DNA of 64,000 bases from Fibrobacter sp. UWB10 (GTDB taxonomy: Bacteria; Fibrobacterota; Fibrobacteria; Fibrobacterales; Fibrobacteraceae). The stretch lies in contig NZ_FXUE01000004.1 of NCBI RefSeq assembly GCF_900182935.1, positions 186,001 through 250,000 on the forward strand. Direction: 5' to 3'. Below the pieces are notes generated by a model. It was given only the letters and a program-made list of their open reading frames with translations, searched no databases and had not been told where the DNA came from. Shown here piece after piece: positions 10,916 through 59,073 of the stretch (position 1 is its first letter; each line of letters starts with the position of its first letter). The position numbers were made by a program, and so were the translations under genes.

Positions 10916-10932
10916 TACAAAAATGTTACGCT

Positions 10933-10949: not shown

Positions 10950-11043
10950 GGCAATTTCGCTTTTTAGGGTAAAATAGGGCGTTTTGCGGGATATATTTAT
11001 AATGGTTTTTGGGATGAAAAACCATCAAAAAGGATGTGTGGAT

Positions 11044-30900: not shown

Positions 30901-30903
30901 GGT

Positions 30904-31899: not shown

Positions 31900-31911
31900 G
31901 TAAATGTTCTT

Positions 31912-33438: not shown

Positions 33439-33454
33439 GGGACTAGAATCGTTT

Positions 33455-36887: not shown

Positions 36888-36906
36888 TTTTCTAACTTTG
36901 GCAACC

Positions 36907-39199: not shown

Positions 39200-39214
39200 A
39201 TTTGAGGAAAGAAC

Positions 39215-41169: not shown

Positions 41170-41200
41170 TGTTGTAACAAACTATAAACGGCTCTCGGCT

Positions 41201-42058
41201 TTAAATGTAATTTTCCATGATTACATTAAAGACTTCGGAGTCGTTTCTGTATTCAGGGAAAAGCTTGTTAATCTTTTTCATCAAGGCACAACAAAGAGAA
41301 ACTCGTTGACTTCTGCGGTCTCGGGCTATGTTTTTCGCTCCCCACAAATGGGAAAAATTGTCATTGTTGTCTTGGAAAGGATCGTCCAAAAATGCGTAGA
41401 TGGGGATATCCATCGCTTTTGCGCACATTGCTACCACACGTTGCTCTGCAAATACCATTTGAGATACGAATTCGCAAGGCATTTCCTTGTTGTCTGTCAT
41501 GAAGTCAATGGAACGTGTTGTGTAATATTCCAAAAAATCCTTGTCCCCAAAATAGGCAAAGGCTGTGTTGCACGGGTTTACCGACCAGTCCCACTTAGGG
41601 TCGGGGGCGTACCCTTTTCGCCTTTTAAGCAGTTCCAAAGGCAGATAACACTCTACAAATTCTTCTCGATGTAAACAGGCAAACTTTTCTTTAGAAAGAA
41701 TTTCGTTAAGATCTGTCCAAACGATTAAATCCGTGTCGATCAACGCGACGGGAACCCCTTCGTTTTTAATGGCGAATAACTTGGCTCCGGCCCAGAAAAT
41801 ATTCTGGTCTATAGAATCGGGAATGTTCGATATGGTTTCGGTGTCAATGCCTCCATTCCACAGGTCCGTAAGTCCAAGGCTTTGATAATATGCTAAACCT
41901 ACATCATCTGTATAAAGTTTTATGGGACCATTGCACCTTCTCCACATTAAAGCGGACAAAATTGTGGTCAGAATTTCAAAATCTTCTATAAAGTATTCTT
42001 TCCCTTTGTTCTTGGCAAAATAGGGCGCTGTACTATTGACGTGAAGTCCTGTAATCAT
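41201..42058 (-). CDS. Glycosyltransferase-like protein at the end of the giant-protein operon
   Basis: 285 residues with no signal peptide. An N-terminal LHVNSTAPYF and VALIDTDLIVWTDLNEIL, with a DxD motif, suggest a GT-A-fold glycosyltransferase; CNTAFAYFGDKDFLEYY would be the acceptor side. I know similar uncharacterised proteins only as DUFs. It starts 3 bases after the stop of the 693-residue gene, so it belongs to the same transcript. It might modify one of the giant proteins or a surface glycan. Activity is inferred from the fold motif only. Confidence 0.55.
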   Translation of the reverse strand: MITGLHVNSTAPYFAKNKGKEYFIEDFEILTTILSALMWRRCNGPIKLYTDDVGLAYYQSLGLTDLWNGGIDTETISNIPDSIDQNIFWAGAKLFAIKNEGVPVALIDTDLIVWTDLNEILSKEKFACLHREEFVECYLPLELLKRRKGYAPDPKWDWSVNPCNTAFAYFGDKDFLEYYTTRSIDFMTDNKEMPCEFVSQMVFAEQRVVAMCAKAMDIPIYAFLDDPFQDNNDNFSHLWGAKNIARDRRSQRVSLCCALMKKINKLFPEYRNDSEVFNVIMENYI

Positions 42059-42061
42059 CTG

Positions 42062-44143
42062 TTATTCCTGGTTTTCCGATTCCTGTTTTCCATCGTCCAA
42101 TTCAATTGTTCTGGGCTTTTTCGTAGGAATCAATTCGTCGAATAACAAACCACTGTTGGCTTGGTATTCACTAATGATGGTGCGGTTCCCAATCCAGTTA
42201 AAGGTTTTTCCGAGGAACCATCTGGTTCTCTGAGCTGTTTTAACAAGTTTGGTCCCATAACCCGCAATCTGGTTCTCGTCAATGTAGAAGGGCTTTACAC
42301 CTCCATTACGATCTTTTTCTGTGGCCAACAATTTTGTGGAGGGCCTGACAGGGAGGAATTCATTATTGTAGAACAGAGGCATTCTTGCGCGACGGAAATG
42401 GATGTTGCGGAAATCATCCAACTGTTCCGGCAAGAAGGGAATCCAGTTCAAAGGTACGCGGTTCTGAACCAGCAAAGAATACTCCGCTTCAGTTTTATTG
42501 GCAGCTGCGTTTTCTTTTGTTGAAGCTTCTTCGTTTTGAGTATTCTTCTCATCGACATCCCTAAATACCGCGTCGGATAAGGTCTTGCCATCCAATGTTC
42601 CGCCACAGCCGTCGTTGATTTTTGTCTCGACACCCCATACCATATTGGCCATTTCGTCTCTTAAGAACTGGACTTCTTCAATGGGTGAACTTTCTTCAGT
42701 TTTCTGAACCACAGGAGGGAACAATAGTCCCCTTGCTGTAGTAAAGTTGTCTTTGGCAAAGGCTTGTGCGCTTGCTATGCCAAACAAATTCCAACGATCG
42801 GTGAATTCGTCTGAATCATTGTTGCCATCTACATCTTCGGCGTCTTCTTCAATATAGATTCTTTCGCCAAAGGAATCCTTTATGACAACGCCTTTCACAT
42901 CAAGGACTACTCCGGTTTCTGTTTCTAACGGTACAATCATCCAATCATTGCTGTACATGCTAATGTACTGCATGATGGCTGCCGTCGCCAACATGCTAAA
43001 GTCTTTTTCATCGTCGGCAACCATATTGACTTTAGTGTTTTCAAATTCCCATAGCTTTTGAGAGGGGGCCCCGGTAAAGTTTGCCGGCACGGGAATGTAA
43101 GAAAACATTTTTTCTTCAACGTCTTTGGGAGAATCCTTTTGTGTTGAGATTTCCGAGCTTATGTTTTTTCCGCCGCTGACATAATTTAAAATATTGCCCT
43201 CTGCTGGAATTGTTCCGAATCCAGAAGAATCTCTTTTTACAGTATTATTGTTTCTTTTGACAAAATTAAGATCCTTGTTGTCGAAGGAATACCAGGAAAG
43301 TCGGCCATTATCATAGTCTTCGGCGTCGTACTTTGTCGAACCTTGATGAATTTCTACTTGGTATCCTAACTTTTGGTTGCTCCAACAACTATCGGTCCTT
43401 TTGTGAGGAAAGTACTTTGCGTCAAACCAAGATACATATTCCTTCAATAAACCCATCATTTTTGATGCGGATGCAGGAACAATATCTTTTAATTTTTTCT
43501 CAACTTCAAATTTATTGAAGTCTACCATTTGGTATAATTTATACCCGTCAAAAGTGCGCTTGGAATAGGCGGCAGAAAAATCTTTCAACGCCGTGTTGTT
43601 CTTGAGCTTCAAAGTCTCAATGGTGTTGTTGATGCTCTGATGCTTGTAAAAGTCCTCGCTACAGAATTCTTTCATCAACCATTCATGAAGCTTTGAATAT
43701 GTTGCTGAATCAAATTCACGAAGAAGTCTTTTCTTGAAATGCATAGCGGACTGGACGCGAATATAGGGAGTTATTTCAGCATCCATTTTTTCCACTTCGT
43801 ATTCAAGCGGTGTATCTGTGGAATATGAACGATTTTCCACATCGCCACTTTCGCTTTTTAAGCAGACCTGATTGAACCTTTTCTTTACTGCCTTAATTTT
43901 TACGGATACCGGAGTGCCGCAATCGTTACCGTCAAAGCGCCCAAATTGCCATTGCCGAGTCAACAACCATAAAGGGTCAAAAACTTCAAAGGAAAGAGCT
44001 TTCTTAAAGTCTTTTGTTCTGGTCTTAGGCTCTAATCTTGAATATAGACCTGATTCGGTTTCATAATTCAATTCATGAATATAGTTCCAGCGGGCAATAA
44101 AATAATTCTGCTGATTTGTATAGAATGATTTTGTTGAAGACAT
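42062..44143 (-). CDS. Uncharacterised 693-residue protein of the giant-protein operon
   Basis: No signal peptide or membrane segment. The N-terminal motif FDPLWLLTRQWQFG (about residues 55-68), followed by GNDCGTPVSVKI, is one I recall from uncharacterised proteins in many bacterial phyla. The C-terminal part has WIPFLPEQLDDF, GTKLVKTAQRTRWFLGK and ANSGLLFDELIP, also family-like. The middle has an acidic patch (IYIEEDAEDVDGNNDSDEF). No catalytic motif is seen. It starts 2 bases after the 1633-residue gene stops and precedes the glycosyltransferase-like gene, so a shared complex or pathway is likely. Function unknown. Confidence 0.7.
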   Translation of the reverse strand: MSSTKSFYTNQQNYFIARWNYIHELNYETESGLYSRLEPKTRTKDFKKALSFEVFDPLWLLTRQWQFGRFDGNDCGTPVSVKIKAVKKRFNQVCLKSESGDVENRSYSTDTPLEYEVEKMDAEITPYIRVQSAMHFKKRLLREFDSATYSKLHEWLMKEFCSEDFYKHQSINNTIETLKLKNNTALKDFSAAYSKRTFDGYKLYQMVDFNKFEVEKKLKDIVPASASKMMGLLKEYVSWFDAKYFPHKRTDSCWSNQKLGYQVEIHQGSTKYDAEDYDNGRLSWYSFDNKDLNFVKRNNNTVKRDSSGFGTIPAEGNILNYVSGGKNISSEISTQKDSPKDVEEKMFSYIPVPANFTGAPSQKLWEFENTKVNMVADDEKDFSMLATAAIMQYISMYSNDWMIVPLETETGVVLDVKGVVIKDSFGERIYIEEDAEDVDGNNDSDEFTDRWNLFGIASAQAFAKDNFTTARGLLFPPVVQKTEESSPIEEVQFLRDEMANMVWGVETKINDGCGGTLDGKTLSDAVFRDVDEKNTQNEEASTKENAAANKTEAEYSLLVQNRVPLNWIPFLPEQLDDFRNIHFRRARMPLFYNNEFLPVRPSTKLLATEKDRNGGVKPFYIDENQIAGYGTKLVKTAQRTRWFLGKTFNWIGNRTIISEYQANSGLLFDELIPTKKPRTIELDDGKQESENQE

Positions 44144-44145
44144 AC

Positions 44146-47100
44146 TTACTCCTTAATATTCTTACCACCACTAATGACGTCGAAAACATTAAACGGCTGG
44201 AATCCGGCCTTGTAGAAGGCTGAAGTGGAATAAGAAGATGGATAGCGTTCTGCTGTAATTCTAAAGTGGATTTCACTAAGTAACGGGAATATAGGACTCA
44301 AGGAGCCGTGATTGTATATGGTGTCCGGATCTACAGCTCTGTTCATCATCAAGAATCTTGTTTCATCTAGAATGTCAAGCAAGGAATCAACATCCCATTT
44401 TTTATCATTGGCAGCATTGCTTGTTTTTCCTGACGGAATATTTTTTTGCTCATACTCAGAGGGCTTTGCGTTAATGATATTGTGGTTGATTGCAACAAGT
44501 ATAGCTTGTGGTGCTTCGTTGTCCGGCCTGTCAGCGTGGAATACTAAGCCAGCGTCATGTTTCTTGTACGGAATGTACTCAAGCCATGAGTCTACGACAA
44601 GACCTGCGTTGGTGCTAAGGGTCAGCTTGTCACTCGAACGCTGTAAGTTGTAGGCGTCTGTATTGTAAAGAACCATGGAATCTACATCTTGCAATTCCGA
44701 TTCATTATCAACAGATAGGCCGAGCCAATTCCCGCTAACAACTTCAGATTTGGAAGATTCCGTCTGTAGTACTGCAATCTTACCCAAATCCATATCAAAG
44801 GCCGTTTGGAACATGGAAAGCTGGTGAATATTTTTCATTCCGTCTCTAACTTCAGAAACTTCGTCTTCCCATTGGTCAAAAGCGTTGAAGTTCAAATTCT
44901 TGTAGAAATGCGGACCACTTTTTACCACTGCATCAATGTGTTCTGCTCGGTTAACCAAGTCTTTTTCAGAGGGGTTTCCCGTCAAAAGATTGAACCGTGG
45001 GATAACTTTTAAGGACTCCAATGTAAGTGTTTGAATGGCAGAAATAAGACCTTTAATGGTTAAGGCTTCCTTTGACTCTACTAAGGACTTTGCAGTTTCA
45101 ATTCTCTCTGCGAGTTTGCGTTCTGCGTCTTCCATGGTGTTCAAAAGTTCCTGTTGCAAGGACAGGGTCTTTTGCATTCTTTCAGGCCATAAATCGGGGT
45201 CTACATTTCCTGCAAATATATCAGAGTCAAACTTGCCGAGGCAATTGACAAGACCTGCCTCTACGCAAGTGCAAAGATATTCATAGGCTTCACGAATAAA
45301 CCCGTCGCTGTATAAGTCTTTCTTGTTAGACTTTCTAATCCAATTGTCGATATTGGAATGGATATTGCCTAAGCATACAATCAAGGGGTCATACCGGTAT
45401 CTTTTTAGTTCGTCAATATCGGTGAATTCTTCTTCGTCAGCACCTTCCCAAAGAGCGCTTTGCAAGTCCGAGGCGCGCATTTCTCGACTATGGAGAACGA
45501 TTGATCTTAAGGCGTTCAGACGAACTTTATCTTCTGCAAGGGTCAATTCTCCTTCTTCGGGAATCCATTTGCCGTCCACATTGTCCTCAAGAATTTCAAT
45601 GTCTCCAGAAACTCTCGGATATTTCAGTCGCCATTTGGTTTTGAGATAGTTTTTGAACGATCCTTCATAAAGTGATAAATAAAGGTATTCAGAACCGCTT
45701 ATGTCCAGATCCTTCAAAGAACAGACATGAGTGGTAAAGCTTTCAGCGGAGTCCATCTCTTTGACGAAGAACTTCAACCTGTCCATGTCGCCAATTACGC
45801 TTTCGATCCAAGCGTTTATAGAAGGTTCTGCAATATTGAATGCTTTTTTAGGCGTTTCGTCAACTTCCGGCAGCATTATGCCAGCTTTATGCGATACGAC
45901 GACGTGTTCCGAAGGAATTTTTAAAATTTCCGGTTCCGGAATGCTGCCCTTGCCGTCGGTAAGGAATTGGCCGATTGCATAGAAGGAACTCTTGTCGCCC
46001 ATGACAAGGCGGTGAACACCTTCTGAAAGCAATAGGTCGTTCAAGGCGTCGTAAGAATCCATCAAGCGTTCAATTTGCTTGAAGAATACGCGGCCTGTTT
46101 CTGTAACTTTATAGTGCGTTTGCGAATGTTCTTTTACTTCGGCAACTAAAAGCTTGTTGGTGTGATCGTTAAGATCGCGAAGCCATTCAAGACTTCCGCT
46201 GTCTTTATAATTTTCCTCCAACCAACTAGAAACGGATTTAGACCAATTCCATTCGGCAATAAACGTATTGAGAAGAGCCTCACCATTGATTACCTGCATG
46301 GAATAGTCTTGGGCTTCTTCTGTTTGAGAATTTAAATCGACAACTTGTTTGAATTGCTGGCGCAGCGGGTAAATGAATTGGTCGAGCTCCACTTTAAATA
46401 AATCGTGAGCGTCGTGCAGGTATCGTTCAAGATCAACGCCAAGAATTACGCCGGTCGACATGCCTCGTCTAACGCCGTCTACAAGGCGTAGGGCCTGGCG
46501 AACGCGCATAGATGACAAGTTTACGCAAATATGAGCGTCTGTTGCGCTTTCCTTGGATTTCAGGTAGGCGCTTCTCAAAACTGCAGTGGTCAAAGCATGT
46601 TGTAAGGATGGTGCTACAACATAGTGTCCCTTATCGTAGCCAGTATTCTTGTAAATTGTGCTTTTATTCGGGTCGAGGTCCAGCTTCATGTTGCGAATGA
46701 TATCTTGGCATTTACCGATATCATTGATTTTTTCGCGGCTGTTTTCCTTAAGATTGAATATCCATCCATAGGCGCCGATTTGCGGGGCGTCACGATGTTT
46801 CGCTCTCTTCAAACGGTCTTGGGCAGACTTGGTTACGCCCATAAACCATGCGTCCAATCGATAGGTAAACAAGTCCAAAAACTCTGCCACATAAATGGTC
46901 AGGTCTTCATCTTGTATTTCGTTTTTTAAATCTTCGCTAAGGCAATCTTTTAACTTCTCAAGGGATGCTTCCCGAGTGATGTCTATAGGCTGATCCGCAA
47001 AGAAACCCAAATCATTTAAATCAGAAATGTAGTCGGTAAAGGGTTCTTTTAAGAAATTCTTTTCTAGAAGGGGGGACCTTACTATAAATCGTTCCTCATA

Positions 47101-49047
47101 CGAGGCTGAATAGGGCGTTTGCCCTGCCATTTTCAAATAATTTTTTTCAGCTGTATCGCCTACTAAGTTTTGAGAATGTGGAATCTGACTTTTGCGAATT
47201 TCCTTCCATACTTCTGCAAGGGCGACAAACTGCCTTAGCAGTTTGGCTTCAACGCTGTCCTTATTAAAGGTTGCTAAGAACTTTTGGTAATCAACGGCAG
47301 GTAAAAAACTGTACGGAAGCGTATCCACTTTTATGGTGGGCAAAATACCACGGGCGCGGACATTGTTAATAACAAAATCTCCCACCGTATCAAGCAAATT
47401 GTTTAAGTAATCGTCATCACTTTCAATGTTGCCTTTAAAGTGATTCCATAGCTCCTGATAAACGCGTTTTGCCTTTGAGTCCTGCTTATGGTTGCCCCCT
47501 GCGACTCGTCTCCAACAGGATTCATAATCCATTCCGGTGAAGTTTGCCAATATAGAGGATTCTTCCGCAAGGTCATCATCCGTTTTATACTTATCATTAA
47601 CTTCAATGTCAAAGCGTTCTCGCTTTATTTCCTCGGCTTCATCCTTAAATTTTCCGTCAAGGCTGTTCGTAGGAGTGCCGGCGGCGACATACGAAATTCC
47701 GGACGCCGTATAGTTGTGCCCGTTAAATAGTTCCGTAAGTTTTTCTGCGCTTTCTGCTTCGGAGAAGTCGTTTATTCCTAAGACATAGATGTAATTAAAT
47801 TCATTTACATCGTTTGGTATGGGTACAGTTATGGCCATGCCGCATTTTTCAGCTTCATCGTAATCAGTCATCCATTTGGCGCCACCCTTGATAACCATAT
47901 CTCCATTGCTGTTGATTTGGAATGGAGAAACTTTATGGCCGTTTTCATCTACTTCCTGTTCGTTGGGGTCTATACCCATTTGAAGGTCCGAAGGAATATC
48001 ATTGGAGTAGGCGTAAATTAGATCCTTGTTTCCGTTGGCAACTTCTCCTATAAAGAAGAATTTTTGGGGCAATATGTTAGATATCGGTATGTCAAGCTTC
48101 GTAGTTTCGTTGACCTTGTTGAAGCTAAAAAGAGATTTGTCGGTTAGATAACTCTTTATCATATCGTCAAGAGTTATTCTATTTTTTGCCATGGTATTTA
48201 TGAATTCATCCACATCTTTCCGCAGCGAAAGCAGAACGGTATAATCAACATCCCATAGTTCAAGACGGCGACAGTTTTCTCTAATTTTTTTAGAATTACG
48301 TTCGTAGAAATTAATGTAGTCGTCCAGATTTCGAGAAAGGTAAGCGATTGTATTGCTGATGTTGTCGTATAGGTAATCCACGACATATTTGCAACTAGAA
48401 ATGCCTGTCTTTATTTCGAAAAGCATTCTTTGAACATCGAATAACTTTGTACGAACGTAAAATTCTACTAGGTATTCGTCTGTTGCTGGAGTTTTGTCCT
48501 CATCAGGAATACTGTCGTCATATTCGTCGTCGTTACTGGTCGTTCTGTAATCATCTTCATTAAGATGCTGCGTTATAATAGACAAATGGTCGTATATCGT
48601 TTTGCAGTTTTCTTCAATGGTCGCCATATTACTATAGGGGCGACGATAAAATAATTTTTGGCCGGGCCTGTAGTCGTCTATATAATCTGGCCTTAAACAT
48701 CTACAAATCCAGGCGGCACGATAAACGGGATACTTTCTGCAAAGAACTTCCCATGCTTCATATTCCCTTATGTCACTACCACTGGCAATGTACCATTGAA
48801 TCCAAAAGAACTTGCCGTCTTCAATTTCTTCCTTGGTCAATTTCTCGGTGTGGTAATCCAGCATAATTTCATCTGGAATTACTCTTACACAAAGCTGCTT
48901 TTGTTCTTTTACCTTGCGAAAATGGGTTTCCAAACGCAAAGGGAACATCATAAACGGGCGTTGAACTATAGTATCCTTGAGGATTTCGTTCAACTTATTC
49001 TTATTCAAGTTGTTTAGGCGATTAGTATTGTTTTGGGACATTGTCAT
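44146..49047 (-). CDS. Uncharacterised 1633-residue protein of the giant-protein operon
   Basis: The start at 49047 overlaps the previous stop by one base (TAATG); an ATG two codons later is possible. No signal peptide. The N-terminal block PLRLETHF (36-43), RVIPDEIMLDYH (55-66) and YRAAWICRCLRP (109-120) is a pattern I recall from uncharacterised large proteins in other bacteria. The middle is mainly helical, with a likely coiled coil (QELLNTMEDAERKLAERIE) in the last third. The end has PIFPLLSEIHFRI and AFYKAGFQPFNVFDVISGG. No enzyme motif is recognised. It may be a structural protein of a large assembly together with its neighbours. Confidence 0.7.
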   Translation of the reverse strand: MTMSQNNTNRLNNLNKNKLNEILKDTIVQRPFMMFPLRLETHFRKVKEQKQLCVRVIPDEIMLDYHTEKLTKEEIEDGKFFWIQWYIASGSDIREYEAWEVLCRKYPVYRAAWICRCLRPDYIDDYRPGQKLFYRRPYSNMATIEENCKTIYDHLSIITQHLNEDDYRTTSNDDEYDDSIPDEDKTPATDEYLVEFYVRTKLFDVQRMLFEIKTGISSCKYVVDYLYDNISNTIAYLSRNLDDYINFYERNSKKIRENCRRLELWDVDYTVLLSLRKDVDEFINTMAKNRITLDDMIKSYLTDKSLFSFNKVNETTKLDIPISNILPQKFFFIGEVANGNKDLIYAYSNDIPSDLQMGIDPNEQEVDENGHKVSPFQINSNGDMVIKGGAKWMTDYDEAEKCGMAITVPIPNDVNEFNYIYVLGINDFSEAESAEKLTELFNGHNYTASGISYVAAGTPTNSLDGKFKDEAEEIKRERFDIEVNDKYKTDDDLAEESSILANFTGMDYESCWRRVAGGNHKQDSKAKRVYQELWNHFKGNIESDDDYLNNLLDTVGDFVINNVRARGILPTIKVDTLPYSFLPAVDYQKFLATFNKDSVEAKLLRQFVALAEVWKEIRKSQIPHSQNLVGDTAEKNYLKMAGQTPYSASYEERFIVRSPLLEKNFLKEPFTDYISDLNDLGFFADQPIDITREASLEKLKDCLSEDLKNEIQDEDLTIYVAEFLDLFTYRLDAWFMGVTKSAQDRLKRAKHRDAPQIGAYGWIFNLKENSREKINDIGKCQDIIRNMKLDLDPNKSTIYKNTGYDKGHYVVAPSLQHALTTAVLRSAYLKSKESATDAHICVNLSSMRVRQALRLVDGVRRGMSTGVILGVDLERYLHDAHDLFKVELDQFIYPLRQQFKQVVDLNSQTEEAQDYSMQVINGEALLNTFIAEWNWSKSVSSWLEENYKDSGSLEWLRDLNDHTNKLLVAEVKEHSQTHYKVTETGRVFFKQIERLMDSYDALNDLLLSEGVHRLVMGDKSSFYAIGQFLTDGKGSIPEPEILKIPSEHVVVSHKAGIMLPEVDETPKKAFNIAEPSINAWIESVIGDMDRLKFFVKEMDSAESFTTHVCSLKDLDISGSEYLYLSLYEGSFKNYLKTKWRLKYPRVSGDIEILEDNVDGKWIPEEGELTLAEDKVRLNALRSIVLHSREMRASDLQSALWEGADEEEFTDIDELKRYRYDPLIVCLGNIHSNIDNWIRKSNKKDLYSDGFIREAYEYLCTCVEAGLVNCLGKFDSDIFAGNVDPDLWPERMQKTLSLQQELLNTMEDAERKLAERIETAKSLVESKEALTIKGLISAIQTLTLESLKVIPRFNLLTGNPSEKDLVNRAEHIDAVVKSGPHFYKNLNFNAFDQWEDEVSEVRDGMKNIHQLSMFQTAFDMDLGKIAVLQTESSKSEVVSGNWLGLSVDNESELQDVDSMVLYNTDAYNLQRSSDKLTLSTNAGLVVDSWLEYIPYKKHDAGLVFHADRPDNEAPQAILVAINHNIINAKPSEYEQKNIPSGKTSNAANDKKWDVDSLLDILDETRFLMMNRAVDPDTIYNHGSLSPIFPLLSEIHFRITAERYPSSYSTSAFYKAGFQPFNVFDVISGGKNIKE

Positions 49048-52000
49048 TAATTCTTTTTAAGAAAGGTTAAAACGTGGCGGCCGATTGTAGACGGTGTATC
49101 TAGGTGGGCATTAGCATATCCTGCAGAGGTGTCGCCGAATTCCGCGTCAGATCTAGCTTTTTCCTTAAAGGCAAGGTCCTCGACAACTTGCTTAAAGGCT
49201 AGCAAATATCCTTGGTTCGGCCCTTCGGGAGAGCCTAAGGCTTCTGCTAGGCTTATTTTAAATCCGACAATAAGGACGTCCTTTATATAAGCTTCTGAAA
49301 CTGGTTTTATGATCGCAGCATTGTCAACATTATCTGCAAAGCTGAATGTTATTGTGCCGTCTGTTTTTACAGATGCTTTAGCCTTATGGAGGAATATCTC
49401 GGTATAGGGGTATAGCTTGACAAGGTCTCCCTTGATTGCGAACAATAACAAGCCGTCTTTACCTGCACAATGATTTTTCCCGAGATTGTTTGTCCATGTA
49501 TGCAAGGATTTTACGTCAAAGAAATCATCTTTACGAATAGACTCTACATCGGTTTCGGAATCCCAGAACTTTTTGAAATAAGAACCTCGTTGATCCGTGG
49601 GGTATTCACGCCACAAAAGCTCACGACCCATTTCTGTGTTCATGCCGCATAAATAGGCTTCCACAAAGGCGGTGTTATTTTCGAACATGGCAACACTGTT
49701 GTTGGGAATATCTTCAATACACGGGAGTATAAACTTGTCCGAGAATTGCTTGAGGTAATAGTAAACCGGTTCCGGGAATATGGGATAAGCCATAATGGGA
49801 TACCTGGATTGAAGAAGATCTTCAATGTATTTGTCTTGCAACTCTTTATTGGAGAAGAATTCTTTGTAATAACCAGATGCAACTTCCCAAATTCGGTTGT
49901 ATGTTTGGTCGTCAAGGACGTCTTTTTTCAAATCGTCAATATCTTTGCAGCTGTCTTGATCTTGCTCTGGGGCTTCTTCTGCCTTTGCTGGAGACAATTC
50001 TTCTAGCTCTTTTACAAATTTATCGAGTTGCAGCCATGACGCGTAAATTGGAGCATTGGTTATGTTGGCAAATTCATTGAGCATGTCGTTATTGATGAGG
50101 AATTTGACATAATCATATGCAGTTTCAAACTTCTGTATGTCGTTGCTTGAACTGTCAATCGTCAGGTTTATTCTGTCAGGATTGCTAGACAAGATTTTTA
50201 TTATTTTGTCTTTTACGCCTGGTCGAATTCCTGATTTTAAGGTCGTGTCTTGTAATTCCAAAACGTCATATTCTAGATTGTCGCCTTCTTCAACAACGTT
50301 ATAGTAACTTTCGTCTGGTTTGTAGAACTTGTAATGATAGGAATCAGAAAGTTTTCGTTTCCATTTGGCAGGCTTATAATAGTACAGTTTTTTCTCATTT
50401 ACATTGTATTCGTACTTTGCTTCTTCTGATGCAGAAGAAGCGTAAATAAATGTGTCTCGGGCGGCGAAACCATTGTATTCTTGGATGTCGGAAAAATAAT
50501 CGTAAAGTTTACCACATTCAAGCCAGATTTCGGCGTTGTTTTTTATATTAAAACTGTTTAGGCTGATTGTCTGTTCGTAATTCGTTAATCGAATATATTT
50601 GCAAATTTCCGGTGAACCAGGATTTGTTATATGTATGCATGCGTAAAGGTCACGACCATTTTTATTGTTGAAATGTTTAATAACGAACGAGCTTATTTTT
50701 CTCTTCCATTTTCTTTCATCTCGACTTCCGGTTGTTTTTTTATCATAAAATAATTTCCCTGATGCATATCCTTCTGTTTTTAAAGAAGAAGTTGTCTCTA
50801 TTCTATGTCCTTTTCCCAGAGTAGTTTCGCATTCAAAATTAGGGTCTTGAATCTGGCTTTCTGTCAGTGTTTCGTATTGATGATAACCGTAAGATGATGT
50901 TGGAACATCGTAAAGATATTGCAATACGTTTTTGTACCGATCGTCTTTTTTAGCCTTGCCCTTTGAAACAAAATAAAAACCTTTTGAGTAATTGGTGTTA
51001 TATGGCATGTATGTAATCAGCTTCTCACATCCAAAAAGCTTTTCATACATAGTGTCTGGCAGCCCCCAAACAACATCATAGTAGAGGGCGATATGTGATG
51101 AATAAGCAGACTCTGTAATATAGCGTTCATCAACTTTATTCAGAGAACAACATGCTGTTGAATCTAGGTCTTTGACTTTTTCAAACCAAGTACTATTTTC
51201 GAAATTTGTATAAATATGTCCGTTTTCGAGTCTTCCCCAAGTATATTTGTCGCTATAATCTAAATAGCTGCAAAAGTGATTGTTGTACTGATTTATGCCG
51301 GCGTTCAATCCATCTTTGGGGAGAATGCCGTAAAAATGTTTCCAATCTTTGCATGAGCCTTTGCAGACTTTTAAGTAATTTCCGAGGACATTTCCTACAA
51401 TAAAATCAGAAATCTTGCTCAGCAAAGCTTCTTTGGTCGTTGCAAGTTGCTCCACTGTAGGAAGGTTATAGAAGGTATGCCATTCATCATTAAAAATCTG
51501 ATGCGCGGCAATGTTTTCCATCATTGTGGTCAAATTCAAATTTTTGAATTTCTGCGCTAAACGATCTGTTACACGCTGGAATGTTGCTGAAGCGAAGGCG
51601 GCAGGAATTCCCTTGTCATTCAAAATGTCATTTAGCGATTTTCCGTTGCTGCCAGATTTCGTATTTTGCATGGTGGACAAACGTTGCATGAATCCGGCGA
51701 TAAAGGCGTTTTCGTTTTGATTCATCCATTCGTAATTCATGCCCTTGACGGATTTGTTGACGCCAATACTCAGAATTCTCTGATATAGTGTTCTGTTAAG
51801 GGTTTGTATTGCTTCTACTTGTTTCCAAGCTCTGTTTACAAACTCTTCCTGATGCTTCTGAATGGTCTTTTTACCAAGGCCTGCAACGGCCCTATAATGG
51901 AGATCTAAGTTGACTTGACGTACCCATTCAGGAGAATCCTTGTGACCGAGCGATGTGGCCATGCTGTGCTTTCCTCCGTATATAGGAGGAACTACCCACG

Positions 52001-53192
52001 GATCATCATTTTCTTGCTCATTTTCGTTCTTGCTTTCGCTAATATCTTGTTTGTTCTCTGCAAAAACGGGGCTTCGACTAAGTAAACGGAACAATCTACC
52101 ATAAAGTTCATTTTCATCCTGCCGTTTGGGATCCGGAAAAGAATCTGGATTTTTCAGCTTTGGATCATTGGTGGGAACCTTTGTTGCCGCAGGCATTAAA
52201 ATGGTTTTGGTTGCAGATTGATTTTCTAGTCCCTTACCTAAAGAGGTTACATCAACATCAATGCCTGTCTTGCTTGCTTCATAAACATCTAGGTTTTCAA
52301 CCAAGGTGTCGAAACTATATGTGCCTGTTTTAAAATTCCATGTATAATATACAGGGAATGTTAAGGGGGAGGGGTGTTTGTCGCCCTCGGTTTGTTCGTC
52401 AAAGGTGTTTTCCCAAGAAGGGGCCTGGGCAATAACATCTTTGAGTTTTTCTGAAGAAAAGCCTATACCACGACGTCTACCAACTTCAAAAACGGGAATG
52501 ACCACAGCTGTGTAATTTGTATTGCCGTCCAAAGGAACGCCTTCTCGGCGCGTCCCCAAGAGCCTACAGAAGCGGGCGTTCTTACCGGAATCCGTTTGTG
52601 CATGGGCTGCTTTCCATATATCTTCTTTTTGAGGGAAAATAGCAGGGTATTCATCTTTGGTTATTTTGAACGTGACAATTTTGTTGCCATTTCCACTATT
52701 CTGTATTTCACACTTGGACGAATCACACACCACAAGAGCTATCCATGGACGAAGTTTGTCGCCTTTGGGTGCTGCAGGAGTGTATCGCCAGGCAAAATCA
52801 GGGTCCCAAAATTCTATGTAAGGAAGATAATCACTAGAAAAACCTTCCGTACCGGCTGCTGGGGAAACGTTCATAATGGCGTTTGAATTTATGGATAGAA
52901 TGTCTCCGGGGCCTGCAATTGCAATCTGTTTGGATTCAGGGGTGATTGCAGTAAGGGATGCTACGCCTTCTTTATCTTCGGGCAAAAATTCTTGTTCAGA
53001 CATTCCACTTGCGATTTTTGCCGTGACGTCTATAATCGCTCGTTGGCGATATAAGGAATCACTATTGCTATCATTGCCAAGTTCATCTGATTGAGTTATC
53101 CTTGTGGAGATGCCCTTTCTTACGAAGGGTGTAAAGAATCCATTCGTGTTAATAACTTCTTTCATGTCGTTACTATTGTTTGTTTGGCCCAT
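49047..53192 (-). CDS. Uncharacterised 1381-residue protein of the giant-protein operon
   Basis: It starts 19 bases after the first giant gene stops. No signal peptide. The N-terminal WDPDFAWRYTPAAP (129-142) with LRPWIALVV (147-155) is a motif pair I recall from uncharacterised proteins that occur with relatives of the other giant proteins. A helical middle with RLSTMQNT and VNRAWKQVEAIQTLN is followed by a long, Tyr/Lys/Asp-rich region without recognisable domains (about 690-1100). The end (ISLAEALGSPEGPNQGYLLAFKQVVEDL) is followed by a short flexible tail. No known catalytic motif. Function unknown; probably acts with the other three. Confidence 0.7.
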   Translation of the reverse strand: MGQTNNSNDMKEVINTNGFFTPFVRKGISTRITQSDELGNDSNSDSLYRQRAIIDVTAKIASGMSEQEFLPEDKEGVASLTAITPESKQIAIAGPGDILSINSNAIMNVSPAAGTEGFSSDYLPYIEFWDPDFAWRYTPAAPKGDKLRPWIALVVCDSSKCEIQNSGNGNKIVTFKITKDEYPAIFPQKEDIWKAAHAQTDSGKNARFCRLLGTRREGVPLDGNTNYTAVVIPVFEVGRRRGIGFSSEKLKDVIAQAPSWENTFDEQTEGDKHPSPLTFPVYYTWNFKTGTYSFDTLVENLDVYEASKTGIDVDVTSLGKGLENQSATKTILMPAATKVPTNDPKLKNPDSFPDPKRQDENELYGRLFRLLSRSPVFAENKQDISESKNENEQENDDPWVVPPIYGGKHSMATSLGHKDSPEWVRQVNLDLHYRAVAGLGKKTIQKHQEEFVNRAWKQVEAIQTLNRTLYQRILSIGVNKSVKGMNYEWMNQNENAFIAGFMQRLSTMQNTKSGSNGKSLNDILNDKGIPAAFASATFQRVTDRLAQKFKNLNLTTMMENIAAHQIFNDEWHTFYNLPTVEQLATTKEALLSKISDFIVGNVLGNYLKVCKGSCKDWKHFYGILPKDGLNAGINQYNNHFCSYLDYSDKYTWGRLENGHIYTNFENSTWFEKVKDLDSTACCSLNKVDERYITESAYSSHIALYYDVVWGLPDTMYEKLFGCEKLITYMPYNTNYSKGFYFVSKGKAKKDDRYKNVLQYLYDVPTSSYGYHQYETLTESQIQDPNFECETTLGKGHRIETTSSLKTEGYASGKLFYDKKTTGSRDERKWKRKISSFVIKHFNNKNGRDLYACIHITNPGSPEICKYIRLTNYEQTISLNSFNIKNNAEIWLECGKLYDYFSDIQEYNGFAARDTFIYASSASEEAKYEYNVNEKKLYYYKPAKWKRKLSDSYHYKFYKPDESYYNVVEEGDNLEYDVLELQDTTLKSGIRPGVKDKIIKILSSNPDRINLTIDSSSNDIQKFETAYDYVKFLINNDMLNEFANITNAPIYASWLQLDKFVKELEELSPAKAEEAPEQDQDSCKDIDDLKKDVLDDQTYNRIWEVASGYYKEFFSNKELQDKYIEDLLQSRYPIMAYPIFPEPVYYYLKQFSDKFILPCIEDIPNNSVAMFENNTAFVEAYLCGMNTEMGRELLWREYPTDQRGSYFKKFWDSETDVESIRKDDFFDVKSLHTWTNNLGKNHCAGKDGLLLFAIKGDLVKLYPYTEIFLHKAKASVKTDGTITFSFADNVDNAAIIKPVSEAYIKDVLIVGFKISLAEALGSPEGPNQGYLLAFKQVVEDLAFKEKARSDAEFGDTSAGYANAHLDTPSTIGRHVLTFLKKN

Positions 53193-53211
53193 AATTCACT
53201 AGTGGTAAAGA

Positions 53212-56200
53212 TTAAACATTCTTAATTTTGTCAGAGAGCTGAGATTTGTAAGTGTCTGCAAGAGCCTGATCAGTCTGCTTGACATATCTGTCAAATCCGG
53301 CGGCAGTCCTTCGCAGAGCGGCTCTCATTGTGTTTGCAGAAGACTTTTGGGTGCTCTGGAGTGTGCTTGCGGAAGACGATTTATTTGAATCGCTAGAGCA
53401 ATAGGTTTCCCAAAAATCTTTGTTGCATTTTCCAAAGTTGTCTTCGCATATTTCATAGTTTTCTTCAAAAGAAATATCATCGAAACCTGAAATATCTTTG
53501 CCTACGGTTGCTTTGATTCGGAAGCCGGAGTGCATGTCTTCGTAAGACGGATAAGAAAGCTTTTCTTTTTCGCTCAGTCTCTTCACAAGGCTAGGCGCAA
53601 AGGAATTCATTTCTGCGTCGTATTCAACAGTGCGTCCGCCAATTGTTATTTCCTTGATTGCAAGGAAATTGCAGTCGTTTACGGTTCCTTCGCCGTAGCA
53701 TTCCATCTTTTTATAGAACGGAACAGCAGATTGCGTAAACATGATGCTTTCTGAAGGCTGCATCACAAAGTCGTTACGGTCGAATTCCACCATGGAGACC
53801 ATGTTGTCGACAAGATCCGTGGAAATAAACTTCCAGTTGTTCCTGTCATTAAAGGCGTCGGTGTAAAGCGGCAGTACGTCAATACGGCTACGGTTGTCGT
53901 CGACCTGCTTTTTGCCCCAAGTAAGACTGAAGGATACCTTAATCTTAATGAACAGCACCCAGAAACTAGCTGTACCCTTGGCATGCCACTGAGCAGGGCC
54001 ACCAAGTTCAAAGTCAAGGCTAATGGAGCAAATGGTGCAACTGCCCACCTTGACTGCAAGTCCTGCGGACATGTCTACAACAAACATAAAGGGGTGGAAC
54101 TGGAATAGAGCATTGAATCCCGCATATCCAGTGATTCCAAACTTGTCCCAACCAATTTTCATCTGGAAATCGGTACCGAACTGGACTGTATTCGAAGTTA
54201 TCGCGAAGTAAGCTTCCAACGACATTTTCAAAATGTCATAATCCAGTTTCATTCCCATGCGCTTCATGTCTGGAAGGTTGAAGCCGCTTTCAGGTTTGTA
54301 CTGCGGATGGAAACCGCCTGCCGATAATATAAATCCTTTCGTGCTGCCGGCCCAGTAAATGCGCAAGGCCACATCGCCATAAAGGTCAATACCTACAATA
54401 TGGGAATCGTACAGGTGGGCGTCAAAGAAGATTCCCTTATCGGCCTGATAGCCGCCCATAAAGCTTGCGTTAATGGCGATTAGCTTTTTAGCGCTTTCAT
54501 TTTCAATTTTTACTGCGATGTTACCGGCAATAATAATGGCTACTGGGCTCGGAGCCTGTATAAATAAGCCGAGGTCCGCTTTAAGGATTTCTCCCCAGGT
54601 GATTTGCCCGAGGAGACCAAAATACATTTGCCCTTCATGAATGGGGTAGTAATTATCGATATTTGCAAGGATTTTTTCGATATCCTTGTCAATATCCTTT
54701 GTCAGCAAAACAGAAGTGAGAGTTCCGTCGTATACGGCATCGCGTAGCTTATCAATGTTTAGTGCGCGGTTTACGCCAAGGGAGCCGCCAATAGCGGTCA
54801 ACGAGAATCCCATGCCCAACTGAATGCCCGGGGTAAAGAATACGCTCAGGGCTCCGCTAAAGGAGTACGGCGTATTGTTCTTGCCCGTGGTGAACAGGAT
54901 TCTTCCACTGGCACCACACTTGTCAAGAATGGTCAGTTCCACTTGTCCAAAGAAGCGGCCCTTTTCTTCGTTCCAGTCCACAAAGCCTGAACCCTTGACA
55001 GCCTCTACGTCGATAGAAATGCCAAGGCCGCTGGGGAACTTGAACTTCGGAGATATTTTGAAAGAACCCGGCTTAAAATTGGAGTCTAAGACGTTGCATT
55101 TAATACCGAGCCCCATTTCGGGGAAGGTGATAACGATACCTTCCAAGTCCACAACAAAGGTTGTCAACAGGTTGGCTAGGAGATTTCCCTTTTCGCCGCC
55201 GATTTCCAAATTGATGTTGTTGAACTTGATAAATTTCAAGTCAATATCACTGTTGATGGGAATATTGACATAGAGTCCGCCATCTATATTGAATCCGTCA
55301 CTTAGGGAATAGCCTACATCAAGTTTGCTTAGCTTAATGGCTATATCGTCCTTCAAAATTTTCTTGAAAAAGTCATTTTGATTACGGAGTTTTAAAGTAA
55401 GGACTAGGGTATCTAATGTGCCGTTTACACCGAAGTCAAAACCCTTGTTGTCAGAACCTTTCTTGTTGTAGGAAAGGGATGTTGACAAGGAGTAATTTTT
55501 TATAGACAGCGAAGCAATGTTTGTGTCGAAGAAACTTAAATCGCCAGCCCCTTCTTTTCTGCTGAATCTTAAAGAGGCGTTTGCACTAACGGAATCTTTA
55601 TCGCCACTTGCATTAAATAGGTTGCTTCCGATAGGCTTGCTTACATCAACAAAAATATTCGTTGTCTCTTCTGAATTTTGCTTGTTGGTATCAATGTTGT
55701 TGTTTAAACCAAAATCATCTTTAAATTCTAGTTTATGATTTTTGCCGATGTTGATAGTGAGACCAGATGAGTGGTCTAGAATAGGGACTATGTAAAGACC
55801 TTCGTGTTTCTCGCCATCAACAGTTTTCTCACCTGCAAACAGTACGAGTTGTATGCAAACATTGGCTTCTCCGTTGGCGCTTCCGCTGTTGTCTGTAATT
55901 TTTTTAGTCCAGATGTCTACAATCAAGATGTTGTTTTCGGCATCAAACTTGTAATCGGGCAATTTGATGTTCTCTAAACAAACCGGAAGTTCTGGAATCT
56001 TGCAGATCTCGAAAGCCTTCTCCCTGATTTGTTTTGGAATGGCTTTGATTACCTTTACAGCAAATAGGAAACCGCTCTTCCAGGTGTCTACTTTTGGGGC
56101 TTCATCGGCCAAATCCTTGACATCGCTGACGAGCTTCTCAACTACAGGAATTGTGTTGATGATTTCGTCAATGACGGAGTCAACATTATCTAACAAGTTC

Positions 56201-59073
56201 TTGAGTTCGGAATTTTTAAGAATATCATTTAAAGTTTTTTTGACGGCTTTAAGAACTTCACTAAGAACTTCGTTGAACCAAGCCTTGATAGCTTTTCGGA
56301 TTTGAGAGAGTATAGGCTTGATGATGATTTCGTAGAACTTGTCTTTAACCTTTTCAAGCCATGTATTTAAGATATTGCAAGCAAGTTGCGGGATTCCTTT
56401 TGAATATTTGACAATTTCGCTAACATTTTGTTCGGTGTCAGCTTTTAGCTGTTCAGCATCCTTACATATGGCTTCAGTTAATTCTTTTATGGCGCTATTT
56501 AAGGCTGTGCCAAAATTTTCAAATTCTTTGTCCAAATCAGTTGGAAGTCGATCTTCAACGGCGTCTGCAACGATGTCGTAATACTTGGAAAAATCAATTC
56601 CATCGAATGGATTGTTGGGGGAATTCCCTTTTAACAATTTATTGACGCAATCTTCAACAGCTTCTTCAACTTCTTTTTTATTCTTCGGGATTCCTGCCGT
56701 CTGTATTTCAAATTCAGTCTTCAGTTTTATTACGGTGTCATTAAAACTGTTTTCCCATTTGTCCTTGTCAAGGAAATCTTCGATTTTTGATATAATATTT
56801 TTTGAATTTTCACGGAGGTTGTCTACAGCTTTCTTGGCAGAGTCGTTACAATGAGTGAGTGTTATATCCTTGTTTAGCTTTACCCCGTTAAAGGATGCTG
56901 AGATTTCCTCGCATGCGGCCTCACCTAAGGTCTCAATAAAGATTTTGTAGAAACTGCTATCGGTATCAATTGTTCCAATATTTATTGCTGCTGTATTTTT
57001 AAGGTCGTTTAACTTGTCGCTTACTTGATCCTTGAGATTCCCTAAATCTTTACTTACTTGTTTCTTTAGGTCGTCAATGAGGCCTTCGCCTTTCTCACGG
57101 AAACTTTCAAATTCGGCGGTCAATTGACTCTTTGTTTCAAGAGCGATATCTTCCAAGGCAATCAAAGCGGTATAAATATATGCCTTGAATTCCTTCAAAT
57201 TTTCAATAAACTCGTTCGCTTCAGAAGCGGTGTTCTTCTTGATTTCTGCTTCAACGCGAGCGACCAATTCCCATAAGAAGTCTTTGATAGAACTGATCTT
57301 GGGAATATTACAGTCAAAGGCATTTAACAAATTGGAAACTTTGACGATTAGCTTTTCGATATCGTCGCAGTTTTTTAAAGGGAATTTTTCTTCTAGATAA
57401 CTCTTGGGGCTTGTAAATATTTGCTTCAGCGCTTTCCAGTCAAAAGAGGGAATCTCTATGGACTTGATTGGATCTAAAATGCCGCCATCGTTGTCATCTA
57501 CTTTATTAGGAATGTAGGTCGCGAGTTTGACCTTTTCTTCGCCGATTATTCCGACGAATTCTAATACGGCATAAACCTTATGGAACGTTCTTGCGAGAGA
57601 ATCGTATTGGGGGAATTCTTCCTTAATGAGCTCTTTTATTTTCGCTTCGGCAACCTTAATGGCCGCCTGAATTCGACGAGAGATTTCTTCCTTAATGCGA
57701 TTTTCAATTTCTTTCTTGATTCGATCGCGAGCTTCATTTATTCTGTTTTGAATGTTATCTAATTCAGAAGAAACGTATTTCTCGGCGTTGTCCTTGAGTT
57801 GAGAACCGGCGTCTTCTAACTTGTTAACGATATTTGATGCGGTATCTTTAACGATGCCTTCCGCGTTTGAACCAGACTCTTTAAGAGTGCTGCCGATTTT
57901 ACCGGCCGTGTCTGGAAGGTCCTCGATTGCTCCTGTAGGCGATTTTTCTGCAGTTTCTGCAAGCTCTTTTATTTCGGATTCTATTGCATCTTGCGCTTCG
58001 CTTATTTCTTTTTCGGCAGCCTCTAGAGCGGCAGTTAATTCTTTTTCTAGCTGAGATTTGAGATCATTAATCTCTTTTCTAAGATCGAGGATTTCATCCA
58101 AAAATTCCAACATTTTTTGGAAATTATCGTCTTTGCTAATCTTGGCAAAGAAATCCACAATGTTTTTAATTGGCCCTTCAAGACTGTTTTGGGCATCTTT
58201 GAGGTCCTTACCTAATTTGTCTCTATAATTTTTGAGCTCATCCCAAATAATATTGAGGTCGTCTCTGAAAACGTCCTTGGCATTTTTCAAAATGAGAATA
58301 AGGATGTAATCTAGGATTCGCTTTCCGAATTCTTCCGTAAAATACGTAGAGCTTATAAAATCGCCAAAATCCTCGCATTCATCCTTAATTTTTCCCCATT
58401 CAATATCCGAGAATTTCTTGATAAGGTCAAGAATCTCCTGAATGAGGCTGAGAATGGGCATGATCTTGCCGTAATCGCTGCCTTCTGCTGCCAAACCAAT
58501 ATTAAACTTCTCGGTTCCGATTAACAAGGTATCGCTATCGCCGATTTTTTTAGCTTCATCACATAGGTTGTCTAGGGAGCTGAAACTGTTTTTTACGTCA
58601 GACCAAGTGACAAGCGTGGTATTTTGGCCATCCTTCTTTTCGTTAGGATTAATTTTGATGCCAGATATAAGGTTTTCGATAACCTCCTGGGGGTCTTTAT
58701 CTTGGTAATCCTTAAAAAGCTTTTTGAATGCTGTACCAAGTTTTTCGCCAGATACAACAAGTTGCTTTAATACTTCGTAGAGATCGTTGCATTCCGACCC
58801 GGCAGCCGAAATATCGTAACCAAGTTTCTTGATGATTTTGTCAACAAAGAGCTTGAAGTCGTCGGCGCTTTTGTTCTTTACCTGGTCCAATTCTTTCTGG
58901 AAATCTTCCCTGGTGGCACCTTCTTTTACAAGTTCGTCAAGTAGATCCTGTAAAATGCAGTCTTTGACTCGCGAAAAAACGGTCGCAAGTTTTTCAATAA
59001 AGTAGGTGACAGTGTCAGCGGGCTTTTTGTCCTTAGAGGCCCCATTGTTTGATGAATTCTTGTTGTCGCTCAT
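53212..59073 (-). CDS. Giant 1953-residue protein: helical N-terminal half, DUF6603-like beta-rich C-terminal half
   Basis: First gene of the operon. The ATG at 59073 has no clear ribosome-binding site. No signal peptide. Residues about 20-1080 are Lys/Glu/Asp-rich helices with coiled-coil segments (ALEAAEKEISEAQDAIESE, RINEARDRIKKEIENRIKEE). Residues about 1100-1780 become beta-rich. LEAYFAITSNTVQFG, NALFQFHPFMFVVDMSAGL and LGGPAQWHAKGTASF (about 1610-1705) match my recollection of DUF6603. The last 170 residues form a separate region (LPLYTDAFNDRNNWKF, then VMQPSESIMF) with clustered cysteines, ending in a Ser-rich linker and a helix. The rod-plus-beta design could be a scaffold or an exported fibre-like protein. 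Function unknown. Confidence 0.7.
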   Translation of the reverse strand: MSDNKNSSNNGASKDKKPADTVTYFIEKLATVFSRVKDCILQDLLDELVKEGATREDFQKELDQVKNKSADDFKLFVDKIIKKLGYDISAAGSECNDLYEVLKQLVVSGEKLGTAFKKLFKDYQDKDPQEVIENLISGIKINPNEKKDGQNTTLVTWSDVKNSFSSLDNLCDEAKKIGDSDTLLIGTEKFNIGLAAEGSDYGKIMPILSLIQEILDLIKKFSDIEWGKIKDECEDFGDFISSTYFTEEFGKRILDYILILILKNAKDVFRDDLNIIWDELKNYRDKLGKDLKDAQNSLEGPIKNIVDFFAKISKDDNFQKMLEFLDEILDLRKEINDLKSQLEKELTAALEAAEKEISEAQDAIESEIKELAETAEKSPTGAIEDLPDTAGKIGSTLKESGSNAEGIVKDTASNIVNKLEDAGSQLKDNAEKYVSSELDNIQNRINEARDRIKKEIENRIKEEISRRIQAAIKVAEAKIKELIKEEFPQYDSLARTFHKVYAVLEFVGIIGEEKVKLATYIPNKVDDNDGGILDPIKSIEIPSFDWKALKQIFTSPKSYLEEKFPLKNCDDIEKLIVKVSNLLNAFDCNIPKISSIKDFLWELVARVEAEIKKNTASEANEFIENLKEFKAYIYTALIALEDIALETKSQLTAEFESFREKGEGLIDDLKKQVSKDLGNLKDQVSDKLNDLKNTAAINIGTIDTDSSFYKIFIETLGEAACEEISASFNGVKLNKDITLTHCNDSAKKAVDNLRENSKNIISKIEDFLDKDKWENSFNDTVIKLKTEFEIQTAGIPKNKKEVEEAVEDCVNKLLKGNSPNNPFDGIDFSKYYDIVADAVEDRLPTDLDKEFENFGTALNSAIKELTEAICKDAEQLKADTEQNVSEIVKYSKGIPQLACNILNTWLEKVKDKFYEIIIKPILSQIRKAIKAWFNEVLSEVLKAVKKTLNDILKNSELKNLLDNVDSVIDEIINTIPVVEKLVSDVKDLADEAPKVDTWKSGFLFAVKVIKAIPKQIREKAFEICKIPELPVCLENIKLPDYKFDAENNILIVDIWTKKITDNSGSANGEANVCIQLVLFAGEKTVDGEKHEGLYIVPILDHSSGLTINIGKNHKLEFKDDFGLNNNIDTNKQNSEETTNIFVDVSKPIGSNLFNASGDKDSVSANASLRFSRKEGAGDLSFFDTNIASLSIKNYSLSTSLSYNKKGSDNKGFDFGVNGTLDTLVLTLKLRNQNDFFKKILKDDIAIKLSKLDVGYSLSDGFNIDGGLYVNIPINSDIDLKFIKFNNINLEIGGEKGNLLANLLTTFVVDLEGIVITFPEMGLGIKCNVLDSNFKPGSFKISPKFKFPSGLGISIDVEAVKGSGFVDWNEEKGRFFGQVELTILDKCGASGRILFTTGKNNTPYSFSGALSVFFTPGIQLGMGFSLTAIGGSLGVNRALNIDKLRDAVYDGTLTSVLLTKDIDKDIEKILANIDNYYPIHEGQMYFGLLGQITWGEILKADLGLFIQAPSPVAIIIAGNIAVKIENESAKKLIAINASFMGGYQADKGIFFDAHLYDSHIVGIDLYGDVALRIYWAGSTKGFILSAGGFHPQYKPESGFNLPDMKRMGMKLDYDILKMSLEAYFAITSNTVQFGTDFQMKIGWDKFGITGYAGFNALFQFHPFMFVVDMSAGLAVKVGSCTICSISLDFELGGPAQWHAKGTASFWVLFIKIKVSFSLTWGKKQVDDNRSRIDVLPLYTDAFNDRNNWKFISTDLVDNMVSMVEFDRNDFVMQPSESIMFTQSAVPFYKKMECYGEGTVNDCNFLAIKEITIGGRTVEYDAEMNSFAPSLVKRLSEKEKLSYPSYEDMHSGFRIKATVGKDISGFDDISFEENYEICEDNFGKCNKDFWETYCSSDSNKSSSASTLQSTQKSSANTMRAALRRTAAGFDRYVKQTDQALADTYKSQLSDKIKNV

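Follow-up and report, generated by a model that had tools for sequence, protein, structure and literature searches.

Gene organization of the locus

A minus-strand operon of five open reading frames occupies positions 41201-59073 of the window, which is the whole stretch of 64,000 nucleotides from Fibrobacter sp. UWB10 that was analysed. The genes, designated P5, P4, P3, P2 and P1 in the direction of transcription, are listed with the features around them in Table 1. Gene calls throughout are the longest open reading frames. A sequence-only reading of this DNA had described five genes with intergenic gaps of 19, -1, 2 and 3 nucleotides, and the coordinates of the open reading frames agree. It had also spoken of four giant proteins. 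The summed length of P2, P3, P4 and P5 is indeed 5660 residues, but P2 with 693 residues is not giant. The motifs that it had quoted (TSNTVQFG, FQFHPF, WDPDFAWRYTPAAP, PLRLETHF, YRAAWI and FDPLWLLTRQWQFG) are all present in the proteins. As it had stated, they are common to other phyla: each lies inside a block conserved across phyla and is not a chance resemblance (alignment consensus TSNTVQFG; WRYTPAxP; RxETRF and RAAWI; RDPLWMLTRQWQxGEF). A simple hydropathy test detected no signal peptide or transmembrane segment in P1-P5 of the window, in line with the same reading, and no signal-peptide-like N-terminus in complete P2-P5 homologues.

Table 1. Coordinates of the five-gene locus and associated features in the window
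Feature	Position	Strand	Description	Basis
P5	53212-59073	-	1953 aa; helical N-terminal half, DUF6603 C-terminal half	ORF list, Pfam, predicted model of residues 1010-1953
DUF6603 domain of P5 (residues 1278-1799)	53677-55242	-	Predicted amphipathic antiparallel beta-meander	Pfam and predicted model
P4	49047-53192	-	1381 aa; no Pfam model; conserved WRYTPAxP and NHEMxRELLWREYPTDQRGSYFRQFWD	
P3	44146-49047	-	1633 aa; no Pfam model	
P2	42062-44143	-	693 aa; no Pfam model; invariant RDEMANMVW; no solved-fold match	
P1	41201-42058	-	285 aa; DUF6734, GT-A-like; clade-specific fifth gene	
Accessory module	41170-59371	n/a	Extent of the module	Comparison with the empty site in a same-species genome
P5 upstream region	59172-59291	-	Four CATACAAA repeats; candidate promoter/regulatory region	
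Intrinsic terminator	59339-59370	-	14 bp stem; separates the upstream acyl-CoA dehydrogenase/ETF operon from P5	

Because the intrinsic terminator closes the acyl-CoA dehydrogenase/ETF operon, the five-gene block probably has its own promoter region. The four CATACAAA repeats are found in AT-rich sequence upstream of P5 (59284-59291, 59273-59280, 59202-59209 and 59172-59179) and represent a possible regulator site. No such repeats were seen upstream of P5 in two other loci, L094 and L090; thus, we treat them as a lead only. The G+C content of the module is 0.41, as against 0.50 and 0.55 on its two sides. An Rfam scan of the window returned no RNA family.

P5-P4-P3-P2 is a fixed, co-evolving cassette

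One genome per species was scanned with patterns derived from P2 of the window. The scan yielded 137 relatives, and 79 loci were kept, some of them on contigs from metagenome-assembled genomes (MAGs). The hosts of the 79 loci are mostly Bacteroidota, a phylum that the sample favours. Other hosts belong to Chloroflexota, Cyanobacteria, Alpha-, Beta- and Gammaproteobacteria, Myxococcota, Nitrospirota, Acidobacteriota, Actinomycetota and Bacillota. Sixty-two loci extend 9 kb or more upstream of P2, and 61 of them have P3 and P4 beside it in unchanged order; in the remaining one, L022, P5-P4 is found at another place in the genome. DUF6603 was present in all 40 cassette genomes tested. The gene order is also unchanged in plasmid records of Halobacteria, Streptomyces, Nocardia and Rhizobium, the last with P3 and P4 split. 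Pairwise identities of the core proteins are strongly correlated over 59 loci (Spearman coefficients of 0.925 for P2/P3, 0.884 for P2/P4 and 0.917 for P3/P4, with permuted maxima of 0.20-0.29).

The four genes are thus a fixed, co-evolving cassette. The earlier proposal of a conserved four-protein set found jointly across phyla is borne out by the linkage, by the constant presence of DUF6603 and by coefficients of 0.88-0.93; homologues lying apart, or clearly matching unrelated functions, were looked for and are not the rule. One Bacteroidales MAG (L018) carries tandem cassettes, in which P5-P4-P3-P2-P1 is followed by a gene resembling a cation-efflux transporter and then by a second P5-P4.

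The cassette is mobile across phyla

Among Fibrobacterota, DUF6603 is found in 8 of 168 genomes and is missing from a same-species genome. This genome has the two genes that flank the module in the window, with identities of 98% and 97% and a distance of 76 bp between them, and 52 bp take the place of the 18.2-kb module. In a tree of the concatenated core proteins, Fibrobacter cassettes sit among or beside those of Bacteroidales. The tree also pairs Kribbella with Chelatococcus, Paenibacillus with Ruegeria, and a gammaproteobacterium with a chloroflexote, each with a support of 1.00. Since the tree crosses phylum borders and the empty site in the same-species genome is clean, the cassette moves as a unit and has been transferred horizontally between phyla. 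Plasmids carry it in Halobacteria, Streptomyces, Rhizobium and Nocardia.

Viral collections hold nearly no relatives of the cassette, which disfavours a phage vehicle. Relatives of P2 and P4 occur in one unannotated 40-kb phage record, and a P2 fragment forms the end of one 4-kb IMG/VR contig; a phage origin of the cassette is unsupported by these two records.

P5 contains a DUF6603 domain with predicted amphipathic beta-strands

The sequence-only reading had placed the large proteins in no recognised family. This holds for P2-P4 and fails for P5 and P1. P5 matches DUF6603 (PF20248) with an E-value of 1e-91 and 308.4 bits at a gathering cut-off of 27. DUF6603 is a catalogued domain whose function is unassigned in Pfam. 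No paper naming DUF6603, PF20248 or IPR046538 was found in the open-access literature, and neither the four-gene context nor the enzyme slot examined below is described there for this domain.

The model of the C-terminal half of P5 (residues 1010-1953) has a mean pLDDT of 76 and a pTM of 0.50. It predicts about 30 successive beta-strands, mostly 10-20 residues in length, and in many of them hydrophobic residues occupy one face and polar residues the other. The mean difference in hydropathy between strand faces is 2.61 in the model, compared with 1.13 after shuffling. Foldseek reported local 3Di similarity of this model to LptD, BtuB, SlpA and ApoB100 with E-values of 3e-5 to 1e-3, but with TM-scores of only 0.07-0.18. 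As far as the model goes, this likeness is a common strand pattern and not a common fold. The long amphipathic antiparallel strands recall the outer-membrane beta-barrels LptD and BtuB and the amphipathic beta-belt of ApoB-100. Unlike these proteins, P5 has no signal peptide (0 of 75 complete homologues in the simple hydropathy test) and occurs in Gram-positive bacteria and archaea. With such TM-scores and a pTM of 0.50, the suggestion that P5 contacts a membrane draws on amphipathicity and local similarity only. Gasdermin was absent from the 50 PDB matches listed for the P5 model, which is of moderate quality, and a profile search with the C-terminal half against solved PDB proteins gave no match at E ≤ 10.

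Several matches fall in the helical, coiled-coil N-terminal half of P5. An Apolipoprotein profile reached 1.1e-11, but with 45 bits against a cut-off of 90; tape-measure profiles of PHROGs scored weakly (2e-11); and PADLOC returned only helical-region similarity to ZorA/LmuB at the N-terminus. We took all three kinds of match (tape-measure, apolipoprotein and ZorA) for coiled-coil similarity and gave them no further weight. Tail-fibre matches in BFVD had TM-scores of about 0.1 and were judged non-specific.

P2, P3 and P4 match no known family

P2, P3 and P4 were without significant matches in both Pfam and NCBIfam, and Pfam likewise had no match to any of 79 P2-family sequences. For P1-P5 as a whole, scans of PHROGs and PADLOC added nothing informative to DUF6603 and DUF6734. 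The alignments show conserved blocks that are strongly kept across phyla in the core proteins. Profiles of P2 and P4 had no match among solved PDB proteins at E ≤ 10. Matches of P3 to helical-bundle PDB entries were weak, none was significant, and they were regarded as noise. The predicted structure of P2 has a mean pLDDT of 79 and a pTM of 0.75 and is confident over most of the chain. The best Foldseek match of this model had an E-value of 0.09, with nothing at E ≤ 0.001; as modelled, P2 matches no known fold.

Exchangeable enzyme genes lie next to P5

We surveyed the upstream side of 50 P5 genes for which the neighbour could be read. These neighbours encode trypsin/NAL1-like proteins (8), subtilisins of family S8 (5), PhoD-like phosphatases (5) and M64-like metallopeptidases (3 readings, one of which is the same locus read twice). 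The remainder comprises two unclassified families, those of L144 and L148, with one case each, 11 other unclassified close neighbours and 16 genes with none. The hydrolase genes are co-directional with P5 and mostly at -4 to +23 bp from it, several with overlapping stop and start codons. The trypsin/NAL1-like genes are sometimes present as two or three in tandem. Protease genes of three unrelated folds lie directly beside P5 in about 15 loci; none lies there in the window.

Enzyme types were called by Pfam (Trypsin_2/NAL1, Peptidase_S8, Peptidase_M64 and PhoD). Because some scores were below the curated cut-off, motifs contribute to the calls. Nearly all of the neighbour enzymes keep GDSG[SA], the S8 motifs or, in the PhoD type, GDQxY/DDHE/SGDVH; the M64-like partner in L057 has no HExxH, and one pattern is missing from some subtilisins. 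BLAST among the neighbour proteins found no domain common to the different enzyme types. The same four enzyme families recur beside P5 in unrelated phyla. On the core tree, the type of the fifth gene changes at least 17 times over 36 leaves as against a shuffled mean of 23.6, which suggests that an enzyme type is inherited for a time and then swapped. Such a linked and often exchanged enzyme gene beside the cassette is new in the present analysis. With 16 of 50 genes lacking a close co-directional neighbour and 11 neighbours unclassified, the enzyme is not obligatory in cis. In Nocardia, the S8 peptidase gene is downstream of P2 and not upstream of P5. A search of the window's own genome, run without a positive control, found no trypsin-like homologue.

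The NAL1-like trypsin proteins of several loci (L155:3398-4870, L140:3624-6703, L149:8182-10943 and others) have a common C-terminal region near VTWHRNKGPAFLAAL without a Pfam match. Bacterial genes for NAL1-like trypsins with this VTWHRNKGPAFLAAL-type region often occur as two or three tandem copies upstream of P5.

P1 is the fifth gene of the Fibrobacter/Bacteroidales clade

P1 matches DUF6734 (PF20508) with 41.9 bits at a cut-off of 27. The DTD of its ALIDTDLIVW segment is invariant in seven of seven homologues and matches the conserved DxD motif of GT-A enzymes. P1 is therefore a putative glycosyltransferase-like protein of the GT-A-like, DxD type. It is distributed only in the Fibrobacter/Bacteroidales clade and in one MAG filed as Crenarchaeota (L004). 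The latter locus is close to Porphyromonas and may be a binning error.

The cassettes with a long P5 (Bacteroidales and Fibrobacter) have no hydrolase gene directly upstream, and in a subset of them P1 directly follows P2. Because of this arrangement and the invariant DTD, the best reading of P1 is that it fills the enzyme role in this clade, against which stands its location at the opposite end of the operon from the hydrolases. The earlier inclusion of a glycosyltransferase-like gene in the system consequently applies within this clade; it does not extend to a universal set, as hydrolase or other genes often lie beside the cassette elsewhere.

Accessory domains and a second DUF6603 operon type

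In Salinigranum (Halobacteria), P2 is fused to one or more Lamin Tail Domains, and in L057 to a Laminin_G_3-like domain. An FG-GAP repeat is present in P4 of Streptomyces longwoodensis, where the gene before P5 encodes a peptidoglycan-binding protein.

A second type of DUF6603 operon was observed in L156, L158, L160 and L183-L187, including Fibrobacter L088/L186 (genome G117). It encodes P5, a distant P4 relative that is sometimes split in two, a protein of 1142-1357 residues from another family, and variable proteins. Profile alignment indicated that P5 and P4 of this type are related to those of the cassette (probabilities of 99.7% and 97%, respectively) and gave no relation of the third and later proteins to P3 or P2. 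In several cases, tail-fibre S74, tail-collar-like or Hint-domain proteins, some with signal peptides, are encoded nearby. Together, the accessory domains and the neighbours of the second operon type hint at surface or extracellular action.

Possible function of the cassette

A four-protein set that is kept jointly across phyla and in Halobacteria, moves as a block and switches its enzyme must serve something strongly selected. Judged from the open-access literature and from Pfam, NCBIfam, PHROGs, PADLOC and PDB profiles, the cassette matches no described molecular machine. Three of its four core families have no Pfam entry, and the P2 model matches no known fold. Our preferred explanation, to which we assign somewhat less than an even chance, is that the cassette encodes a horizontally transferred, membrane- or surface-acting assembly which carries or positions an exchangeable enzyme. 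P2-P5, which have no signal peptides, would be synthesised in the cytoplasm and would assemble with one another; we infer this physical assembly from their obligate linkage and co-evolution. The large amphipathic beta domain of P5 may engage lipid or membrane, and P2-P4 may supply a scaffold, with ligand binding through the domains added in some lineages. The assembly would carry, expose or position the enzyme encoded by the adjacent exchangeable gene. Where an enzyme can be recognised, most lineages would use a protease (trypsin-like, subtilisin or M64-like) or a PhoD-like phosphatase; in the Fibrobacter/Bacteroidales clade, the window included, the role would fall to P1, the glycosyltransferase-like protein with the DxD motif. 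The enzyme would most likely act at or beyond the cell surface, on a competitor, predator or substrate, and the cassette would serve as a platform that delivers or displays interchangeable cargo. Since the hosts have one membrane, two membranes or archaeal envelopes, such a platform is expected to be independent of any particular secretion system. The absence of an export or lysis gene from the core speaks against it.

Bacterial gasdermin operons place a protease next to a beta pore-former. The cassette resembles them in coupling a hydrolase gene to a beta-rich, possibly membrane-active protein and in being sporadic and mobile. By analogy, cleavage of P5 or a partner by the linked hydrolase could, upon infection, free the amphipathic beta domain and let it make holes in the membrane of the producing cell itself, an activity in self-killing or defence that the proteases of three unrelated folds beside P5 in about 15 loci, the amphipathic strands of P5 and the patchy, mobile distribution would fit. 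We consider this unlikely. PhoD-like phosphatases also occupy the slot, and a glycosyltransferase-like protein replaces the hydrolase in one clade; the cassette has four large co-evolving proteins, no gasdermin fold was seen among the Foldseek matches listed for P5, and the core has no sensor or NTPase gene. PADLOC gave no match to anti-phage defence over a functional domain, its ZorA-type helices matching only the coiled-coil N-terminus of P5. As the phosphatases and the glycosyltransferase-like protein share the role of the proteases, which purely proteolytic activation fails to explain, we prefer carriage or display of the enzyme at or beyond the surface. The same partners, P1 and the phosphatases, could instead modify a substrate in a complex that handles envelope lipids or glycans by storing, moving or altering them, with P5 as a lipid-binding sheet. 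The local similarity to ApoB and LptD and the Apolipoprotein profile on the N-terminal half of P5, which scores 45 bits against its cut-off of 90, point in that direction. Such handling of lipids or surface polymers appears improbable to us given the protease partners, the unrelated envelopes of the Gram-negative, Gram-positive and archaeal hosts, and an occurrence that is sporadic and not core (8 of 168 Fibrobacterota genomes).

Extracellular contractile injection systems (eCIS; PMC8213781) are likewise mobile multi-gene sets with variable enzymatic partners in bacteria and archaea. The cassette differs from them in having no sheath, tube, baseplate or ATPase gene and no sequence relation. 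A contractile particle derived from a phage tail or eCIS, with structural genes diverged past recognition, would agree with the weak tape-measure scores of the P5 N-terminal half (2e-11) and with the tail-collar-like or S74 tail-fibre proteins that adjoin the second DUF6603 operon type (L156, L183-L187). We regard it as very unlikely. Pfam and PHROGs gave no sheath, tube, baseplate or ATPase match in P1-P4 and only the coiled-coil, tape-measure-type match in P5; the Protein Data Bank includes solved proteins of injection systems and phage tails, yet P2, P3, P4 and the C-terminal half of P5 have no significant PDB match; and the cassette is essentially missing from phage collections. The sheath family PF04984 was found in 14 of 24 cassette genomes and so is not general in the hosts, on which ground dependence on a contractile system was rejected. 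The possibilities raised by the sequence-only reading, namely a large cytoplasmic assembly, an exported particle or a contact-dependent weapon, are conjectural. More broadly, Pfam, PHROGs and PDB profiles gave no sequence relation of P2-P5 to known injection or toxin particles, and the Tc toxin families TcA, TcB and TcC yielded no Pfam match and no significant PDB profile match. Finally, patchy distribution and variable neighbours might be those of selfish or structural mobile cargo without a single conserved function, the neighbour enzymes being chance passengers. This is less plausible still, because unrelated phyla have the same four enzyme families beside P5, with stop and start codons that overlap in several cases, and the four core proteins are strongly conserved.

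If the enzyme-carrying assembly exists, contractile injection systems, Tc complexes and gasdermin operons would be joined by a new type of machine, and three protein families would be opened to work on structure and function. The pattern of the enzyme slot makes the function testable, since the partners have assayable activities. That the assembly represents an undescribed class of delivery or display particle in bacteria and archaea, with four co-evolving giant proteins, an amphipathic beta shell and interchangeable protease, phosphatase or glycosyltransferase cargo, is a more doubtful proposal, which we put forward with reserve.

Other genes of the window

Positions 27810-41169 hold a probable aryl-polyene-type biosynthetic cluster (AMP-binding and ApeI dehydratase, MMPL exporter, and beta-ketoacyl synthases), whose last gene is one edge of the insertion site of the module. 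An open reading frame of 989 residues at 17478-20447, near a GGDEF/EAL/receiver protein, had no Pfam match at 1e-5. Tandem glycoside hydrolase genes lie at 6907-12819 and 2845-4800, with three GH10 and CBM6 proteins in a row and one GH39-like and CBM6 protein; they fit the plant-fibre degradation known for Fibrobacter.
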